Assembly (NCBI RefSeq): GCF_021502675.1
Contig: NZ_JAKFHA010000042.1
Span: forward strand, 1-64,000
Reading direction: 5' to 3'
Length of the DNA stretch: 64,000 nucleotides
Source: Yinghuangia soli
GTDB taxonomy: Bacteria; Actinomycetota; Actinomycetes; Streptomycetales; Streptomycetaceae
Part shown: positions 42,676 to 52,710 of the stretch, piece by piece
Numbering within the stretch: position 1 is the first letter of the stretch
Layout of the letters: each line of letters starts with the position of its first letter
Notes under the pieces: generated by a model
Database searches by the model: none
What the model was told of the DNA's origin: nothing
What the model saw: only the letters and a program-made list of their open reading frames with translations
Program-made: the position numbers and the translations under genes

Positions 42676-43056
42676 TCAGCCCTCGGCGGCATCCGGCCCG
42701 GGAGGCTCAGGATGCCGGTCCACCCCGCCCATGATGTTCTCCCGGCCCCAGGCCCCCAGCGGCTCCAGGGCCTTGTTGAGCAGCGCCCCGGTCTCGGTCA
42801 GGGAGTACTCGACGCGCGGCGGCACTTCGTCGTACGCGACGCGATGCACGATGCCGTCCTCTTCGAGCTCGTGCAGGTGGGACGCCAGCACCTTGACGGT
42901 GATCCCCGGCACCTGGCGGCGCAGTTCGCCGAAGCGGATCCCCGGGTACTCGTGCAGCGCCCAGAGGATCAGCACCTTCCACTTGCCGCCGATCACGCCG
43001 ACGGCCGCATCGATGCCGCAGACGTACCGGCCCGGTCTGATCCGCTCGCTCGCCAT
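42676..43056 (-). CDS. HxlR family transcriptional regulator
   Basis: A 126-residue winged-helix regulator: DAAVGVIGGKWKVLILWALH, LRRQVPGITVKVLASHLHEL and a wing VPPRVEYSLTETG. HxlR proteins sense electrophiles, quinones or redox state, often through one Cys; here Cys-13 in RYVCGIDAAVG is the candidate. It is divergent from an imine-reductase-like oxidoreductase, with 109 bp between, and is its likely regulator. Confidence 0.9.
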   Translation of the reverse strand: MASERIRPGRYVCGIDAAVGVIGGKWKVLILWALHEYPGIRFGELRRQVPGITVKVLASHLHELEEDGIVHRVAYDEVPPRVEYSLTETGALLNKALEPLGAWGRENIMGGVDRHPEPPGPDAAEG

Positions 43057-43090
43057 CCCCCTCCGACCTCCCGTAGTGCGCCGACCTGGA

Positions 43091-43136
43091 GACTCACTTG
43101 AGAGTAACCGGTGATTCGAAAGTGCCTACTTGAGTC
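43091..43136. promoter_or_regulatory. ACTTGAG repeats in the hxlR-type/oxidoreductase intergenic region
   Basis: ACTTGAG occurs at 43096-43102 and 43128-43134, 32 bp apart (three helical turns). GACTC at 43091 and GAGTC at 43132 flank them as an inverted pair, and TTCGAA lies at 43115-43120. This is a good HxlR operator candidate. Confidence 0.5.
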
Positions 43137-43165
43137 GTCCACAGGCTTCCGGCGAGCCTGAACCC

Positions 43166-44089
43166 ATGACGCAAGACCTGAAGCAAACCCGACAGAACGC
43201 CGCAGACAACCCCGTCACGCTGCTCGGCCTCGGCGCGATGGGGACCGCCCTCGCCCGCACCTGGCTGGCCGCCGGGCATCCGCTCACGGTGTGGAACCGC
43301 ACCGCTTCGCGTGCCGACGCCCTGGTCGCCGAGGGCGCGAAGGCCGCAGCCACCGCCGCCGAGGCCGTCGCTGCCAGTCCGCTCATCGTCGTGTGCCTGC
43401 TGGACGAGGCGTCGGTGACCGAGGCACTCGCCGGCGTCGACCTGGCCGGCAAGGACGTCGTCGACCTGACCACCGGAACTCCCGCGCAGGCCCGGGCCCG
43501 GGCGCGGTGGGCCGAGGAGCGCGGCGCGCGCTTCCTGGACGGCGGGATCATGGCGGTCCCGCCGATGATCGGGATCCCGGAGGCCGGCGGCTACGTCTTC
43601 TACAGCGGTTCGCGCGCGCTGTTCGACGCGCACGCGGACACGCTGTCGGTGCCCGCGGGGGCGAACTTCGTCGGCGCCGACCCCGGCTTCGCGAGCCTGC
43701 ACGACGTCGCCCTGCTCAGCGGCATGTACGGCATGTTCGCCGGCATCACGCACGCCTTCGCCCTCGTCCGCGGCGAAGCGGACATCAAGCCCACCGAGTT
43801 CGCCCCGCTGCTCAAGGGCTGGCTGCACGCGATGAGCGGGGCCGTCGACGGCTACGCGGAGCGCCTGGAGAGCGGCGACTACACCACCGGAGTGGTCTCC
43901 AACCTGGCGATGCAGGTGGCCGGCATCCCGACCTTCCTCGGCACCGCCGCCGGACAGGGGGTCAGCACCGAACTCCTCACGCCCTTCTTCGGCCTGATGG
44001 AACGTCTGCTCGGCGAAGGAGCCGGCGCGGAGGACACCGCGCGTGCGGTGGACCTGCTGGCCGGACGGGCGGGAGCCGCCACCGCCTAG
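43166..44089 (+). CDS. NAD(P)-dependent reductase, imine reductase-like
   Basis: A 307-residue beta-hydroxyacid dehydrogenase superfamily protein. The N-terminal Rossmann motif is LLGLGAMGTALA with VWNRTASRADALV, which favours NADPH. The segment GGIMAVPPMIGIPEAGGYVF with YSG is the hallmark of the imine reductase group. The C-terminal helical dimer domain has SLHDVALLSGMYGMF, in which the Asp is the likely catalytic residue. Such enzymes reduce cyclic imines. It is divergent from an HxlR regulator. ATG 43166 is preferred; the stop shares the CTAG palindrome with the convergent gene. Confidence 0.87.
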   Translation: MTQDLKQTRQNAADNPVTLLGLGAMGTALARTWLAAGHPLTVWNRTASRADALVAEGAKAAATAAEAVAASPLIVVCLLDEASVTEALAGVDLAGKDVVDLTTGTPAQARARARWAEERGARFLDGGIMAVPPMIGIPEAGGYVFYSGSRALFDAHADTLSVPAGANFVGADPGFASLHDVALLSGMYGMFAGITHAFALVRGEADIKPTEFAPLLKGWLHAMSGAVDGYAERLESGDYTTGVVSNLAMQVAGIPTFLGTAAGQGVSTELLTPFFGLMERLLGEGAGAEDTARAVDLLAGRAGAATA

Positions 44090-45382: not shown

Positions 45383-46660
45383 CTACGGCTGCACGCCCGG
45401 AACCCCCACGAACGCCGGGCACTTGGCCGCGCCCTTCGGCACGTCCTCCGGCCGCAGCGGCTGCCAGACCTTGGCGACCTCGGGACCGACCTCGGCCGCG
45501 ATGGGCGCCAGGAAGTCGAGGTCGAAGCCGTACAGCTTGGCCGCGTTGCCGCCGACCATCGCGGCGACCTCGGCCGGGTCGATGCCGTTGTACGTCAGCT
45601 GCAGAGCCTCGCGGCTGAACGGGTGGCTCGCCTCCTTGTGCGGGTAGTCGCTCCCCCACATGACGCGGTCCACGCCCACCGCATAACGCAGCGCGGCTTC
45701 CGCCGGGCGCTGGAAGCTGGCCCCCACGTGGCACTGCCGGGCCCAGTACTCGCTCGGCTTGAGCTCCATCGAGGCGACCAACTCGTGGCCCCACTCGTAC
45801 TCTTGCGAGCCGACCGCGGTGCCCATCCGGTGCCAGTAGTAGTCGAGCCGGCGGCATTCCTCGGGGATCCAGGCGGTGCCCTGCTCGGTGAAGACGAACT
45901 GCAGCTCCGGGTGCTTGTCCATGGTCCCGGAGACGATGAGGTGGGTGAACGCGCGGTGCGCCCACCACGACACCTCGGTCAGGAACACCACCTTGTCGGT
46001 CAGCGTGTCGCCGATCGGCGGGGCAGCCGAGCCGGTGTGGTGGTTGACCGGAATGCCGAGTTCCTCGGCGGCCTGCCACAGCGGCTTGTAGTGCTCGTAG
46101 TTCCACAGTTCCACCAGACCGGAGCCAGGCGGGGTGCCGGGCAGCAGCAGGCCGCCGGTGAGGCCGGCCTCCTTGGCCCAGCGGATCTCCTCGATCGCCG
46201 CGTCCAGGTCGTGCAGCATGACCTGGACGATGCCGGCGCGGCGGCCGGGGGTCTTGGCGCAGAAGTCGGCCATCCAGCGGTTGTGCGCCTTGAGGCCCTC
46301 CCACCGCAGCTTCAGGTCGCCGGCGTTGGCGGCCGGCGGCTGGTCGGTCAGCGAGGCCTTGGGGAAGAACGGCGGAACGGTGTTGGGGTAGATGACCTCG
46401 GCCACCACCCCGTCGTCCTCGAGGTCCCGCAGCCGGCGGTCGGAGTCCCAGTTGCGCTTGCCGGCGTCGCCGAGCAGGTCCGGGTACGGCACTTCGTAGT
46501 GCCGGACCCAGGCGTCGAACTCCTCGTGCAGGCGGGACGGCAGGTAGGCGCGGTACTCGTTGATCTCGCCGCCGCCGTGGCAGTCGGCGGAGACCACCGT
46601 GTACCGCTCCGGGCCGTCCCAGGCCGGCATGGCGGACGGTGTCATGCCGTCATCTGTCAT
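45383..46660 (-). CDS. amidohydrolase family 2 protein (COG2159)
   Basis: A 425-residue TIM-barrel metal-dependent hydrolase or decarboxylase of the amidohydrolase 2 group (ACMSD/resorcylate decarboxylase relatives). Motifs are VVSADCHGGGEINEYRAYLP at the N-terminus, GIPVNHHTGSAAPP (metal His), FTEQGTAWIPE, and VMWGSDYPHKEASHP with the barrel Asp. The usual N-terminal HxH is DxH here, as in this actinomycete subgroup. It starts 5 nt after the stop of a second enzyme of the same family. Both belong to an operon with an SDR. The substrate is unknown. Confidence 0.85.
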   Translation of the reverse strand: MTDDGMTPSAMPAWDGPERYTVVSADCHGGGEINEYRAYLPSRLHEEFDAWVRHYEVPYPDLLGDAGKRNWDSDRRLRDLEDDGVVAEVIYPNTVPPFFPKASLTDQPPAANAGDLKLRWEGLKAHNRWMADFCAKTPGRRAGIVQVMLHDLDAAIEEIRWAKEAGLTGGLLLPGTPPGSGLVELWNYEHYKPLWQAAEELGIPVNHHTGSAAPPIGDTLTDKVVFLTEVSWWAHRAFTHLIVSGTMDKHPELQFVFTEQGTAWIPEECRRLDYYWHRMGTAVGSQEYEWGHELVASMELKPSEYWARQCHVGASFQRPAEAALRYAVGVDRVMWGSDYPHKEASHPFSREALQLTYNGIDPAEVAAMVGGNAAKLYGFDLDFLAPIAAEVGPEVAKVWQPLRPEDVPKGAAKCPAFVGVPGVQP

Positions 46661-46665
46661 GGTGC

Positions 46666-47976
46666 TCAGACCTCCAGGGCTTCCGCGGTCGGGTTGATCG
46701 CGGCGCCGTAGTCGAGACCCGTCATCCAGTGGCGGCCGATCTCCTTCACGGCCGCCCACTTGGTCTCCAGGTCCTTGACCGCGCCGTCGGGTCCGGTCTG
46801 CCCAAGTGTCTCCGGCGTCACACCGACACGCTCCGCGTGCGGCTTGAGGACGTCGAGGTCGAACCCGTAGACGCCGGCCGCCGCTTCGCCCAGCATGACG
46901 CGCGTCTCGTCGATCGGGACGTCGCCGAACGTCTTGCGCAGAATGTTGAGGGTCTCCGGCCAGGTGCCTTCGGGGTGCGGGAAGTCGTTGCCCCAGCAGA
47001 TGTTGCCGATGCCGATCTCGTACCGCATGCCGATCTCGCGGCGCTTGGTGTTGGACGCCCCGATGAAGCAGTTGCGGTCGAAGTACTCGCTGGGCAGGAG
47101 CTTGACCTCCTCGAAGCCGGCCAGCTTGGCCGCGCCGCGCGAGCCGAGCAGCAGCCGGTCCATGAACCACAGCATGTTGCCGACCCACCAGCAACCGGCC
47201 TCGGTGACACCGAACTTCAGGCGCGGGAAGCGCTCGAAGACGCCGGACCACAGCAGGAACCACAGCGGGCGGGCGGGCCACCACGTCACCTCGGTGACGT
47301 AGATGCCGAGGTGGTTGCCGTACGACTCGCGGTCGGCCGGGCCGGAGTGCGTGACGACGGGGAGTTCGAGCTCCTCGCACAGCGCCCACACCGGGTCGTA
47401 CTTGCGGTCGTGGTACGGCGTCTGGTTCATCCACATGGCCGGGATCATGACCGCGCCGAGGCCGTCGGCCTTGATGCGGCGGATCTCGGCGAGCACGTCG
47501 GGCAGGTCCGCGGTGATCGGGATCAGCGCGACCCCGCGGCGGCGCTCCGGCGAGGTCTTGCACAGTTCGGCGAGCCACCGGTTGTGCGCCTGCGCTCCGG
47601 CCAGGCCGAGCTCCGGGTCCATGTCGCCGGAGAGCCCGAGGCCCGCGCCGAACGGCACGCAGGTGCGGGACTCGACGGCGTCTGCATCCGGGAAGATGAC
47701 CTCCCCGACCACGCCGTCCTTGTCGAGTTCGAGGTCGCGCCGGTCGACCTCCCAACCGCTGCGCAGCACCTCCTCGTTGGTCTCGAACCAGTTCGCGGCG
47801 AAGTCCTCGTTGCGCACGCCCAGGTCGGTGATGGCCTTGAGCTGCGCCTCGCGCTCCGACATGAACTGGTCGAACGCGGCGTGGTGCTTCGTCGCGAGGT
47901 AGTCGCGGTACAGCTCGGTGGGCAGCCCGGCGTGGGTGTCCGAGGAGATGATGATGTACGGGTCAAGCTGGCTCAT
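46666..47976 (-). CDS. amidohydrolase family 2 protein (COG2159), second copy
   Basis: A 436-residue paralogue of the adjacent enzyme. It begins with IISSDTHAGLPTELYRDYL (DxH). It carries LPVVTHSGPADRESYGNH, FGVTEAGCWWVGNMLWF and ICWGNDFPHPEGTWPET, where the barrel Asp is in NDFPH. The two proteins share the order of motifs but differ in most substrate-side loops, so they may act on successive intermediates or form a heteromer. It is followed closely by its paralogue and lies 9 nt downstream of the SDR gene. Confidence 0.85.
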   Translation of the reverse strand: MSQLDPYIIISSDTHAGLPTELYRDYLATKHHAAFDQFMSEREAQLKAITDLGVRNEDFAANWFETNEEVLRSGWEVDRRDLELDKDGVVGEVIFPDADAVESRTCVPFGAGLGLSGDMDPELGLAGAQAHNRWLAELCKTSPERRRGVALIPITADLPDVLAEIRRIKADGLGAVMIPAMWMNQTPYHDRKYDPVWALCEELELPVVTHSGPADRESYGNHLGIYVTEVTWWPARPLWFLLWSGVFERFPRLKFGVTEAGCWWVGNMLWFMDRLLLGSRGAAKLAGFEEVKLLPSEYFDRNCFIGASNTKRREIGMRYEIGIGNICWGNDFPHPEGTWPETLNILRKTFGDVPIDETRVMLGEAAAGVYGFDLDVLKPHAERVGVTPETLGQTGPDGAVKDLETKWAAVKEIGRHWMTGLDYGAAINPTAEALEV

Positions 47977-47985
47977 GGCGGGCTC

Positions 47986-48876
47986 TCACTTGTCCAGGAT
48001 GAACGTCTCGAGGTACGACGGGTTCGAGCGCGCGAGCATGCTCTGCGACCGGGAGGTGATCATCTGGTCGCTGTGCTCGCTGGCCGGCAGGATCCAGAAG
48101 CGGTTCTCCCGGATGCCTTCCACGACGTTGGCGGCGACCGACTCGACCGGGGTGAACTCGATCTCCTGCCCGGCGTCGCGCATCGCCTTCTCCCACGCGT
48201 CCAGCGTGTTGTACGGGGTCTTGCGGGGCGTCGTCTTGGCGAACCGCTCGGGGCGGTTGCGGTACGACTCCCACAGCCCGGTGCGCAGCATCTTCGGCCC
48301 CGGGAAGAGCACCGAGGCACCCAACTTGGCCTGGACCTGGTGCAGTTGGGCGTAGAGCGCCTCGGTCATGGTGACCACGGCGGCCTTGGTGGAGGCATAC
48401 ACCGAGGCGTTCGGCAGCGGCGCGATGCCGCCGTCGCCGGACGAGGTGTTGACGATGTGGCCGTCGGTGCCCTGCGCGAGCATGCGCGGCACGAACGCCT
48501 GGACGCCGTTGAAGACGCCGAAGACGTTGACCGCGAAGCACCAGTCCCAGTCCTTGGGGTCGTGCTCCCACATCTTGCCCTCGGAGCCGGAGCCGATCCC
48601 GGCGTTGTTGCACAGCACGTGGACCTCGCCGAAGCGGTCGAACGCCGCATCCGCGAGGGCGAACACCGAGTCGCGTATGGACACGTCGGTGACGTGCCCC
48701 AGGACGTCGCCGCCCTGTTCGGCGAGGCGGGCGACGGCCTTGTCGAGCGCGCCCTGCTCGATGTCGGAGAGCACGACCTTCATGCCCTCGGCGACGAAGC
48801 GCTCGGCCATCGCGAAGCCGATGCCGCTGGCGGCGCCGGTGACGACGGCGACCTTGCCGGTGAAGTCGTTCAGCAT
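47986..48876 (-). CDS. short-chain dehydrogenase/reductase
   Basis: A 296-residue classical SDR. It has the TGAASGIG nucleotide motif, VLSDIEQG after the second strand (Asp favours NAD), VLCNNAGIG, a catalytic Ser in VNTSSGDGG and YASTKAAV (Tyr-x3-Lys). Its C-terminal extension (IRENRFWILPASEHSDQMI) is typical of actinobacterial catabolic SDRs. It is the first gene of the three-gene run toward the amidohydrolases. A hairpin at 48923-48947 lies between it and the upstream decarboxylase-like gene. Confidence 0.9.
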   Translation of the reverse strand: MLNDFTGKVAVVTGAASGIGFAMAERFVAEGMKVVLSDIEQGALDKAVARLAEQGGDVLGHVTDVSIRDSVFALADAAFDRFGEVHVLCNNAGIGSGSEGKMWEHDPKDWDWCFAVNVFGVFNGVQAFVPRMLAQGTDGHIVNTSSGDGGIAPLPNASVYASTKAAVVTMTEALYAQLHQVQAKLGASVLFPGPKMLRTGLWESYRNRPERFAKTTPRKTPYNTLDAWEKAMRDAGQEIEFTPVESVAANVVEGIRENRFWILPASEHSDQMITSRSQSMLARSNPSYLETFILDK

Positions 48877-48922
48877 GTACGTGGGTTCCCTTGCGTTCGC
48901 GGCGGCTTGATCGGTGGAGCCG

Positions 48923-48947
48923 GCGGGCCCGGCAGGACCGGGCCCGC
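48923..48947 (-). terminator. hairpin between decarboxylase-like and SDR genes
   Basis: A 10-bp perfect GC stem with a 5-nt loop lies in the 94-nt gap between two same-strand genes. It may terminate or attenuate the transcript from the decarboxylase-like gene. Confidence 0.55.
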
Positions 48948-48970
48948 GGGGGCCGGTGCGGCCCGGCGGG

Positions 48971-49774
48971 TCAGACCGGGTCGCCCGGGGCCGGCGGCTC
49001 GTCGGCGATCTGGGCCACGTCGTCGTAGCGCTGGTGGATGTACGGGAGGACCAGGTCGGCCTTGACGTGCTCGGCCACGAAGCCCTGCTGGTCGCTGGTG
49101 CGCTCGCCCAGCGTGATGGACACCAGCTTGCGTACCGGAAGGTCGGCGACCGGGTCGAAGTCCGAGTCGCGCAGGATGACTTCGCCCTCGATGCGGGCCG
49201 AGGAGCGGTGCTTCTCGTTGCGCGTGACGTGCACGAGCATCGGGTCGGCGTCGAAGCCGTCGCCGTCGATCGCGGGCAGGAACTTGTAGTAGAAGCTCGT
49301 CGTCGTGCGCGGCTCGGGCAGCGGGAGCTCCTCGGCGACCCGGCCGCGGATCTCGACGTACGTGACGCCGAGGCGGGTCACCTTGCCGACCACCTCGTCG
49401 CCGTCCCGGTCCACGGTCACCTCGGCGATCTTCTTCGGCTCGCCGAAGACCTCGCGGCCGCCGATGACGGACCGCTCGGTGGTCATCGGCATGGTGAGGG
49501 TGTAGTCGCCCTCGACGTCGCCGTGCTTGCAGCGCACCGCGATCGCCCCGGCGCCCAGCATGTACCCGTTGATGTCGCAGGACGAGATGTTCGCGCGGAC
49601 CAGCGGCCGGTCCGCGGGGACCAGCGGGGGCGGCAGGACGGCGGCGATGACCTCGGGGTCGGTCTCCCAGAGCGCGACGATGCCCGTGGACCAGATCTCG
49701 GGCAGGACGCTGCGGTCCTTCGCGGCCTTGTTCAGGGTCTCCAGGGAGCGTGCGCCGTACCGGACTCGTGCCAC
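48971..49774 (-). CDS. acetoacetate decarboxylase family protein
   Basis: A 267-residue protein of the acetoacetate decarboxylase superfamily (COG4689). The family's Schiff-base Lys region is visible as GREVFGEPKKIAEVTVDRDG. An N-terminal VLPPPLVPADRPLVRANIS and a central FYYKFLPAIDG are also typical. Family members include true decarboxylases and aldolase-dehydratases, so the reaction is not fixed. It lies next to and divergent from a TetR regulator with an operator-like palindrome between them. Confidence 0.83.
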   Translation of the reverse strand: MARVRYGARSLETLNKAAKDRSVLPEIWSTGIVALWETDPEVIAAVLPPPLVPADRPLVRANISSCDINGYMLGAGAIAVRCKHGDVEGDYTLTMPMTTERSVIGGREVFGEPKKIAEVTVDRDGDEVVGKVTRLGVTYVEIRGRVAEELPLPEPRTTTSFYYKFLPAIDGDGFDADPMLVHVTRNEKHRSSARIEGEVILRDSDFDPVADLPVRKLVSITLGERTSDQQGFVAEHVKADLVLPYIHQRYDDVAQIADEPPAPGDPV

Positions 49775-49863
49775 GGAACCTCACCTCTTCGGGATCGTCG
49801 GCGGTGCGTCGGTGGACCGCCGGTGGATCTTTCGTGCGGGTGGTGCGGTGGTGCGCCGTTCTC

Positions 49864-49878
49864 TGTAACACTGTTACA
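49864..49878. promoter_or_regulatory. perfect TetR-type operator palindrome
   Basis: TGTAACA-C-TGTTACA, a 15-bp perfect inverted repeat in a markedly AT-richer spot, lies between the decarboxylase-like start (49774) and the TetR start (49985). Confidence 0.75.
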
Positions 49879-49984
49879 TGGAGACGACAGCCAGGTAAAG
49901 AGCGGACCCGAGATCGGGATCGAAGGCCCCGACGCGCCGCCCCCGGGCACGCCCCGGGCCCATCGGACGCGAGAATGGGAAGCG

Positions 49985-50653
49985 ATGGACCGACCCAGAG
50001 CCACCCCAGCCACCCCGAAGCGGGCCGCCGCGGCACCCGGTGCGCCCCGCGTCACGCGCGACGCCGTCCTGGACACCGCCATGCGGATGGTCATGGAGTC
50101 CGGCGCGCAGGGCCTCAGCATGCGCAAGCTGGCCGCCGAGCTGGGCGTGGCGGTGACCTCGATCTACTGGCACGTGGGCAACCGCGAGGCACTCGTCGAC
50201 GAACTGGTCGAACGCGTGCTCAGCGACATGGGCGCCATCCGGGTCACCGGCGACACCCCGGTGGCCCGGATCGTCTCGATCGCGCACGCCAACCGCCGCA
50301 TGATCCTGGACCGGCCGCACCTGATCGGCCTGGTCCGCGAGCGCGGCCTCGAGGCGTCGATGATGCTGCCGGCCCGCCGGGCCCTGGTCCGGGAGTTCGC
50401 CGCGGCGGGCGTGCACGGGGCGCAGGCGGCGGCCGCGGTGCAGTCGGTGCAGTTCCAGCTGGCCGGCTTCGTGATGCTGGAACGCGCACTGACCGGCCCC
50501 GCGCAGGAGCCGGCCGAGGTGCACGCGTGGCTGGAGGAAGTGGGCGCCGGGGACCCGGAGTTGGCCGAGGCGCTGGCCGCCCCGCCGGATGCCGAGAAGC
50601 TCTTCGGGATGGCGGTCACGGCGATGGTGGAGTCGCTGATCCGGGACAGCTGA
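49985..50653 (+). CDS. TetR family transcriptional regulator
   Basis: A 222-residue regulator. The N-terminal helix-turn-helix is TRDAVLDTAMRMVMESGAQG, then MRKLAAELGVAVTSIYWHVG with NREALVDELVE. The C-terminal ligand domain is of the TetR_C type and all helical. About 30 Pro/Ala residues precede the DNA-binding domain. It is divergent from the decarboxylase-like gene and is the likely repressor of the catabolic genes at 45383-49774, acting at the 15-bp palindrome. Confidence 0.9.
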   Translation: MDRPRATPATPKRAAAAPGAPRVTRDAVLDTAMRMVMESGAQGLSMRKLAAELGVAVTSIYWHVGNREALVDELVERVLSDMGAIRVTGDTPVARIVSIAHANRRMILDRPHLIGLVRERGLEASMMLPARRALVREFAAAGVHGAQAAAAVQSVQFQLAGFVMLERALTGPAQEPAEVHAWLEEVGAGDPELAEALAAPPDAEKLFGMAVTAMVESLIRDS

Positions 50654-52227: not shown

Positions 52228-52458
52228 CCGTCCACCCCGCCCTCGAAACCCGGTCCCGGGTCGCCGTCTCCCCGTGTCTCCCCCTGAAACGAACACCTGC
52301 GCCGACCGGTTGGGCCGCCCGCGGGCACACTTCGCACGCCCGGGCCGCGCCGGCGGCCGTCACGCGAACGGGCCAGTCTGATTTGCCCGGAACATCCCCA
52401 CGCTCGAAGGTTGTCGCGTACGGGTCGACACCGACCCCCTCACCGGCAAGGAGCCCCC

Positions 52459-52710
52459 GTGGCGCGATGCGAGGTCTGCGGCAACGACTACTACGCCTCG
52501 TTCGAGGTGCACGCGGGTGACGCCGTGCACGTGTTCGACAGCTTCGAGTGCGCGATCACCCGGATGGCGCCCATCTGCGAGCACTGCCGGTGCCGCATCA
52601 TCGGCCACGGCGTCGAGTCGGACGGCCGGTACTTCTGCTGTGCGCACTGCGCGAAGGCGGAAGGCGCCACCGGCATCCGCGACAACGTGTCGGTGGCCGC
52701 CGGCATGTAG
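52459..52710 (+). CDS. small zinc-binding protein (annotated as metallothionein-like in Streptomyces)
   Basis: An 83-residue Cys-rich protein: CEVCGNDYY, then DSFECAI, ICEHCRCRIIGHG and FCCAHC. The pairs CxxC, CxxC and CCxxC with nearby His make two probable zinc sites. Homologues in Streptomyces are often labelled prokaryotic metallothionein, but the spacing looks more like a structural zinc ribbon. GTG at 52459 is chosen because AAGGAG lies 5 nt upstream. Confidence 0.8.
   Translation: MARCEVCGNDYYASFEVHAGDAVHVFDSFECAITRMAPICEHCRCRIIGHGVESDGRYFCCAHCAKAEGATGIRDNVSVAAGM

Follow-up and report, generated by a model that had tools for sequence, protein, structure and literature searches.

The 64-kb stretch of Yinghuangia soli DNA analysed here (the window) carries four minus-strand genes that encode, in order, a protein of the acetoacetate decarboxylase (ADC) fold, a short-chain dehydrogenase (SDR) and two amidohydrolase-type proteins (AH2 and AH1). 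A TetR-family regulator gene is divergent from them, and a palindrome, TGTAACACTGTTACA, lies in between (Table 1). An earlier note, made from the letters of this DNA, had described these five genes and the perfect palindrome, with TetR head-to-head with the ADC/SDR/AH operon, and all of them are indeed present. Gaps between the genes are 5 bp (AH2-AH1), 9 bp (SDR-AH2) and 94 bp (ADC-SDR). The closest named relatives were on contigs of Embleya, also of the Streptomycetaceae, with an AH2 92% identical to that of the window. We favour, with moderate confidence, the view that the locus is a TetR-switched oxidative catabolic operon with a paired dinuclear oxygenase, an SDR and a Schiff-base enzyme of the ADC fold.

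Table 1. Features of the locus (positions in the window)
Feature	Position	Strand	Description
AH1	45383-46660	-	425 aa; PF04909 above gathering score; predicted amidohydrolase-related dinuclear oxygenase
AH2	46666-47976	-	436 aa; PF04909 above gathering score; predicted dinuclear oxygenase
SDR	47986-48876	-	296 aa; PF00106, E 5e-46; classical short-chain dehydrogenase
ADC-like (ADC-fold protein)	48971-49774	-	267 aa; PF06314, E 2e-43; GTG start; first gene of the operon
Operator TGTAACACTGTTACA (consensus TGTAACNNNGTTACA)	49864-49878		perfect 15-bp palindrome
TetR-family regulator	49985-50653	+	222 aa; TetR_N, PF00440; divergent from the operon

The conserved unit and its operator

To begin within the Streptomycetaceae, ADC had a match in 53 of 150 family genomes; 43 matches were strong (E 8e-96 or better) and 10 weak. 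In 20 loci drawn from the strong-match genomes and read as 12- to 20-kb stretches, the order ADC>SDR>AH2>AH1 was kept without exception (20/20). A TetR match occurred in 18 of these, being directly divergent in 17 and ~4 kb off in one (L066), and the palindrome was found in 19 at no more than two mismatches. We also scanned 84,980 species genomes with an AH2 profile, which returned 440 relatives; the best 80 of these and seven further loci (eight were fetched, and L190 was dropped because its AH2 identity, 44.6%, lay below the 50% threshold) made up a set of 87 loci. AH1 accompanied AH2 in all 87, ADC in 60 and SDR in 59, with the reservation that some contigs were short and gene absences are uncertain for that reason. 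Eight arrangements were seen, most commonly ADC>SDR>AH2>AH1 (38), AH1>AH2 (22) and AH1>ADC>SDR>AH2 (14), and more rarely AH2>AH1>ADC (5), AH1>SDR>AH2 (3), SDR>ADC>AH1>AH2 (3), SDR>AH2>AH1 (1) and AH2>AH1 (1). Since the gene set stays constant while its order changes, a functional unit is favoured over inherited position.

By record title, the carriers include Embleya, Streptomyces, Streptacidiphilus, Catenulispora, Frankia, Pseudofrankia and many actinobacterial metagenome-assembled genomes. Three genomes, taken by us for mycobacteria and belonging to a different family of the same class, had SDR>ADC>AH1>AH2. The comparison with mycobacteria and Frankia that the earlier note had proposed was run, and the unit was conserved in Frankia and in these mycobacteria-like genomes. 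A survey of the phylum gave 22 of 396 genomes, a number that counts paralogues too and is not a distribution figure. Some neighbouring genes were also observed. Two of the three mycobacteria-like genomes (L183 and L185) have, at a distance of a few kb from the AH pair, a third gene of amidohydrolase type, and in L183 genes for an MFS transporter and a TauD-type dioxygenase are also close by. A fatty-acid-hydroxylase/sterol-desaturase-like gene (PF04116, a label from Pfam on one representative) follows AH1 in 11 of 21 Streptomycetaceae loci (e.g., L071:6595-7473), the window not being among them. Beyond AH1 in the window (42676-44089), an HxlR-type regulator gene is divergent from a reductive-aminase-like (PF21761) dehydrogenase gene, a pair that lies outside the conserved unit as far as seen.

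The palindrome was the sole match to TGTAACACTGTTACA in the window at up to three mismatches, for which 0.06 matches would be expected in 64 kb, and 6 of 100 shuffled sequences had one. It was also the only perfect copy in the 9.7-Mb window genome, with one further place at one mismatch. Its distance is 89 bp to the start of ADC and 106 bp to that of TetR; a scan of this intergenic region gave one terminator-like site on the plus strand and no promoter. The N-terminal DNA-binding region of TetR has tetracycline repressors as its nearest solved chains, and the TetR_N domain together with a palindromic operator at the operon suggests a local repressor of the TetR family. Of the 87 loci, 62 have a TetR homologue no more than 9 kb away, and in all 62 TGTAACNNNGTTACA, at no more than two mismatches, is located in the ~350 bp that precede the first operon gene; among the 25 TetR-less loci this holds for 1. 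That one, L112, is on a contig that ends ~2 kb upstream of ADC, and its congeners L106 and L110 have TetR ~5 kb upstream. Across loci the position of the operator tracks the first operon gene rather than TetR: several Frankiaceae and acidimicrobial loci have TetR as the final gene of the operon, and there the operator precedes AH1. A scan of 1.54 Mb placed 65 operator sites in the 350 bp before a core gene and 3 elsewhere. In a random-window control, 35 of 1,760 windows were positive, which is an upper bound only since true operators were not removed, and the loci are related, so that the operator and pairing counts are not independent trials and Fisher values computed from such loci were not taken as probabilities. 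The five Frankia/Pseudofrankia loci had no operator at up to two mismatches; they share a conserved upstream gene, which was of IclR type in the one tested.

The perfect motif occurred at 21 places in 19 of 121 whole genomes, and 19 of the 21 places were at the cluster; these 19 genomes all fall among the 36 (of 121) with a strong ADC match, and a reversed control pattern was present in 4 of the 121. Because of this concentration at the cluster, TetR is predicted to be a local regulator with one or two sites per genome. Comparison strongly supports the gene unit and its operator, and control of the operon by its own TetR at the 15-bp site is a supported prediction, in keeping with the TetR control that the earlier note had supposed.

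The one-mismatch site in the window genome (C56:202820-202834; L225:2021-2035) lies between a gene for a zinc-type MDR alcohol dehydrogenase and a divergent hexapeptide-repeat gene. It recurs in the same setting in six of seven close genomes, with the 14-bp core GTAACACTGTTACA, where the MDR proteins are 80-97% and the hexapeptide-repeat proteins 66-81% identical to those of the window genome. In the seventh (G018) the second site was absent, and so was any close relative of the MDR protein (best 40%). These two genes may belong to the same TetR regulon; further one-mismatch sites also occur in the close genomes.

KstR, which controls steroid catabolism, is likewise a TetR-family repressor that governs a catabolic regulon in actinobacteria and has a palindrome next to its gene, but its operator, TnnAACnnGTTnnA, has 2-bp spacing (PMC1995591), whereas the spacing here is 3 bp. 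A steroid regulon of the KstR type was rejected, since TnnAACnnGTTnnA is absent between ADC and TetR and the TetR scored 18 bits versus a KstR cut-off of 280. The TetR regulators of rubber degradation (LcpR) were also set aside, as their palindromes contain the same letters GTTACA in a different layout (PMC7413915).

Predicted dinuclear ligands and pairing of AH1 and AH2

Among solved structures, the best sequence match of both AHs was PtmU3 of the platensimycin/platencin system (PDB 6omp; E 4e-32 for AH1 and 1e-20 for AH2), followed by DitZ of Rhodococcus rhodochrous (PDB 8uyr), which is known to us by its PDB title. In AibH2, a subunit of the 2-aminoisobutyrate monooxygenase AibH1H2 of Rhodococcus wratislaviensis, the metal ligands are D25, H27, H211, E265, D337 and H340, and the acidic residue at 342 (E313 in PtmU3) is reportedly absent from the mononuclear AibH1 and a conserved feature of binuclear members alone (PMC7782822). 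The corresponding residues are D13, H15, H210, E259, D331, H334 and E336 in AH2 and D26, H28, H208, E259, D338, H341 and E343 in AH1. They were invariant in sets hand-picked to be diverse, 26 of 26 AH2 and 25 of 25 AH1 sequences (L099 has a truncated AH1), and the six-ligand pattern DxH, H, E, DxxH was also kept in 20 of 20 family loci for each AH. Both proteins resemble PtmU3 in the TIM barrel, in the ligand pattern and in having Glu as the seventh, acidic residue, whereas DitZ has Asp at that position. When 19 further AH-like reading frames of the window genome were compared, 15 had all seven ligands (the last being E or D), one was without the seventh only, and three failed more widely. As a side observation, this genome, counting AH1 and AH2, holds ~17 AH-like frames in which the dinuclear set is complete (loci L004-L022), and in a tandem pair at C11 (L014) one member is complete and the other is without the seventh residue only, like AibH1H2.

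Several comparisons weigh against an oxygenase assignment. Decarboxylases were the third solved sequence match for both AHs, ahead of AibH2; the chains of AibH1H2 and of the dinuclear enzyme SfbO matched lower down, with SfbO low in the AH1 list. AlphaFold2 models of AH1 and AH2 (mean pLDDT 87 and 78, respectively) gave as top fold matches PtmU3 for AH2 (Z 33.9, 339 residues, root-mean-square deviation (rmsd) 3.1) and, for AH1, DitZ (Z 31.0, 336 residues, rmsd 3.1) and PtmU3 (Z 30.8, 310 residues, rmsd 3.0), with decarboxylases close behind (Z 33.9 versus 30.9 for AH2 and 31.0 versus 28.0 for AH1). As the superfamily includes both enzyme kinds, AH1 and AH2 could be metal-dependent hydrolases or decarboxylases, e.g., opening the ring of a cyclic beta-diketone, in a pathway without O2. 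However, in pairwise alignment the resorcylate decarboxylase 2dvt has His, Phe and Asn where AH1 has E259, H341 and E343, two relatives from the same genome with an HxH-type site (L018 and L022) fail the ligand test in a similar way, and the best match is a diiron oxygenase; we regard this alternative as quite unlikely. Since decarboxylases score almost as high, the fold ranking was dropped as proof of an oxygenase, and because fold alone cannot separate the two kinds, our assignment is based on the ligand residues. The complete dinuclear set and PtmU3 as best match suggest that oxidation probably starts with O2 activation, and that AH1 and AH2 are probably not hydrolases but dinuclear oxygenases, an assignment that stands as a supported prediction. 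Of the earlier note's description, two COG2159 amidohydrolases, the family part held (both are PF04909) and the hydrolase role probably does not.

Two PF04909 genes lying together, as in every one of the 87 loci, is a mark of heteromers of the AibH1H2 type. In that enzyme only one subunit is dinuclear; since both AHs keep the seventh acidic residue, we did not class the pair as a member of that type. With seven ligands in each, AH1 and AH2 could instead be separate dinuclear oxygenases that perform two successive hydroxylations and are not subunits of one enzyme. The window genome encodes four AH1-like paralogues, 46-47% identical and with the full ligand set, and three of them have no AH2-like neighbour in the stretches read, which agrees with such independence. 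The fourth (L006/L193; L193:8947-11038, C1), with all seven ligands, adjoins a 292-aa PF04909 protein without ligands, which argues that pairing is a wider habit; L193 is possibly another oxygenase pair, with a degenerate partner. More directly, AH1 and AH2 stay together through changes of gene order and whether ADC or SDR is inserted or missing, and this persistence through reshuffling favours an obligate partnership. We therefore consider separate enzymes a conceivable but doubtful alternative, and AH1 and AH2 probably form a heteromer.

The ADC-fold protein, the SDR and neighbouring genes

The active site of the ADC-like protein was compared in alignments with 3c8w, 3bgt and 3bh2. A PKK motif (K114/K115) is invariant in 20 of 20 ADC-like sequences and aligns with the PKK of 3bh2, and family PF06314 and this lysine are common to the protein and to the acetoacetate decarboxylases 3bh2 and 3bgt. 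E61 and E76 of 3bh2, in contrast, correspond to N62 and A75, neither of which is acidic. E61 and E76, and also R29, are active-site residues of the decarboxylase; R29 falls outside the aligned stretch. The protein also scored below the NF002614 cut-off (48 versus 150 bits). A canonical acetoacetate decarboxylase was ruled out, and since the lysine is kept while the two acids are lost, a different Schiff-base C-C reaction is suggested. The earlier label, acetoacetate decarboxylase-like, is therefore apt for the family and the Schiff-base lysine and fails at the two acidic residues. In the SDR, the motifs TGxxxGxG and YxxxK could both be read intact. It scores above the cut-off of NF004843, a model whose name is 'hypothetical protein', and a mycofactocin-coupled SDR was ruled out (113 bits versus a cut-off of 300).

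Neighbours within ~10 kb of AH2 were tallied for 46 loci outside the Streptomycetaceae (sorted by record titles), with each family named from one representative and the second ligase family recognised by eye from sequence. The most frequent were an acyl-coenzyme A (acyl-CoA) ligase, an acyl-CoA dehydrogenase and an APH-type kinase-like protein (13 loci each), followed by a second ligase family and a second dehydrogenase (11 each) and a branched-chain-type permease and a luciferase-like monooxygenase (9 each). The ligase, dehydrogenase, kinase-like and permease neighbours come from about a dozen loci of acidimicrobial type; in L102, for example, a ligase, dehydrogenases recognised by similarity, AH1, AH2, TetR, the kinase-like protein, a ligase and transporter genes lie in a row. 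A kinase-like protein with a dehydrogenase follows the logic of 4-hydroxyacyl-CoA catabolism. These CoA-ligation, dehydrogenase and transport neighbours favour an imported acid that is handled as a CoA thioester. They also bear on the idea that the cluster serves the production or tailoring of a secondary metabolite instead of the degradation of a compound. The characterised relatives PtmU3 and LynB7 are biosynthetic and the host family is Streptomycetaceae, both of which suit that idea; the neighbours conserved in other taxa are instead of the kind just listed (genes for polyketide synthases, nonribosomal peptide synthetases and terpene synthases were not specifically searched for), and we judge a biosynthetic role improbable.

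Three points count against the catabolic operon as we propose it. First, ADC and SDR were both absent within 6 kb in 23 of the 87 loci, so they are not obligatory partners of AH1/AH2. Second, no CoA ligase gene was recognised in the operon of the window. Third, a small Rieske ferredoxin gene accompanies 90% of AibH2-like genes (PMC10401708), and a motif scan, which could miss unusual ones, detected none near the cluster; nor was any gene for an electron donor recognised nearby. The scan gave matches in 25 of 89 loci, the window included; 24 were recurrent CEHC...CxxH matches to a small Cys-rich protein judged not to be Rieske, and the remaining one was a 383-aa Rieske-type protein at the dropped locus L190. 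In 23 of the 88 other loci, a relative of the window's Cys-rich protein (~52411-52707, plus strand; ~99 aa, CEHC...CCAH) was recognised by motif a few kb away from the cluster.

Proposed pathway and relation to known systems

In the pathway that we propose, the substrate would be an acid, most likely in the form of a CoA thioester. AH2 and AH1, probably joined in a heteromer, would constitute a dinuclear (Fe2 or Mn/Fe) monooxygenase of amidohydrolase fold and hydroxylate one of its unactivated C-H bonds. The resulting alcohol would be converted to a ketone by the SDR, and the ADC-fold enzyme, having formed a Schiff base via K114, would catalyse a C-C step on this keto intermediate, of the retro-aldol or the decarboxylation type. 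TetR would bind the 15-bp operator between its own gene and the operon and be released by a pathway intermediate. Here we infer the heteromer, the CoA substrate, the order of the steps, the electron donor, the last step and the TetR ligand. The earlier suggestion that these proteins oxidise and cleave a cyclic or beta-keto compound agrees with this pathway as a general idea, a beta-keto substrate being possible. The C-5 hydroxylation by PtmU3 is said to prepare a ring cleavage.

Amidohydrolase-related dinuclear oxygenases are already a known kind of enzyme (PMC10811679, PMC10401708 and PMC12141560), of which very few had been described by 2024 (PMC10811679). PtmU3 hydroxylates C-5 of a diterpenoid-CoA (PMC10127204); the operon differs in that two such proteins are paired, usually with an SDR and an ADC-fold protein. 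The aib system shares with it two PF04909 genes together, a catabolic cluster and dehydrogenase genes, but has a mononuclear AibH1 where AH1 and AH2 are both complete, and employs a Rieske ferredoxin, a reductase and a LysR regulator where we found TetR and no ferredoxin nearby. SfbO and the related structures 8sm7-8sm9 are, like the AHs, dinuclear and of amidohydrolase fold, with three carboxylate and three histidine ligands, but they were found via neighbouring Rieske genes and studied as single proteins, and their neighbourhood differs from that of the AH operon. Literature searches, which covered titles and abstract openings (most subscription papers being out of reach), returned nothing on a paired two-centre form with an SDR and an ADC-fold protein under TetR. 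A bolder reading, which we put forward only tentatively and hold to be less likely than the operon's catabolic role, is a new class of two-component oxygenases in which two amidohydrolase-fold subunits, each with a full dinuclear O2-activating centre, would jointly carry out one or perhaps two oxidations of a cyclic or terpenoid acid bound to CoA and, with the SDR and the Schiff-base ADC-fold lyase, form an undescribed pathway across Actinomycetota.

If the proposal is true, proteins labelled 'amidohydrolase' would be O2-activating enzymes, and the operon would be a well-bounded, regulated and widely conserved case in which both subunits are predicted to be catalytic. The operator and its TetR would also offer a handle on the natural substrate through ligand release.

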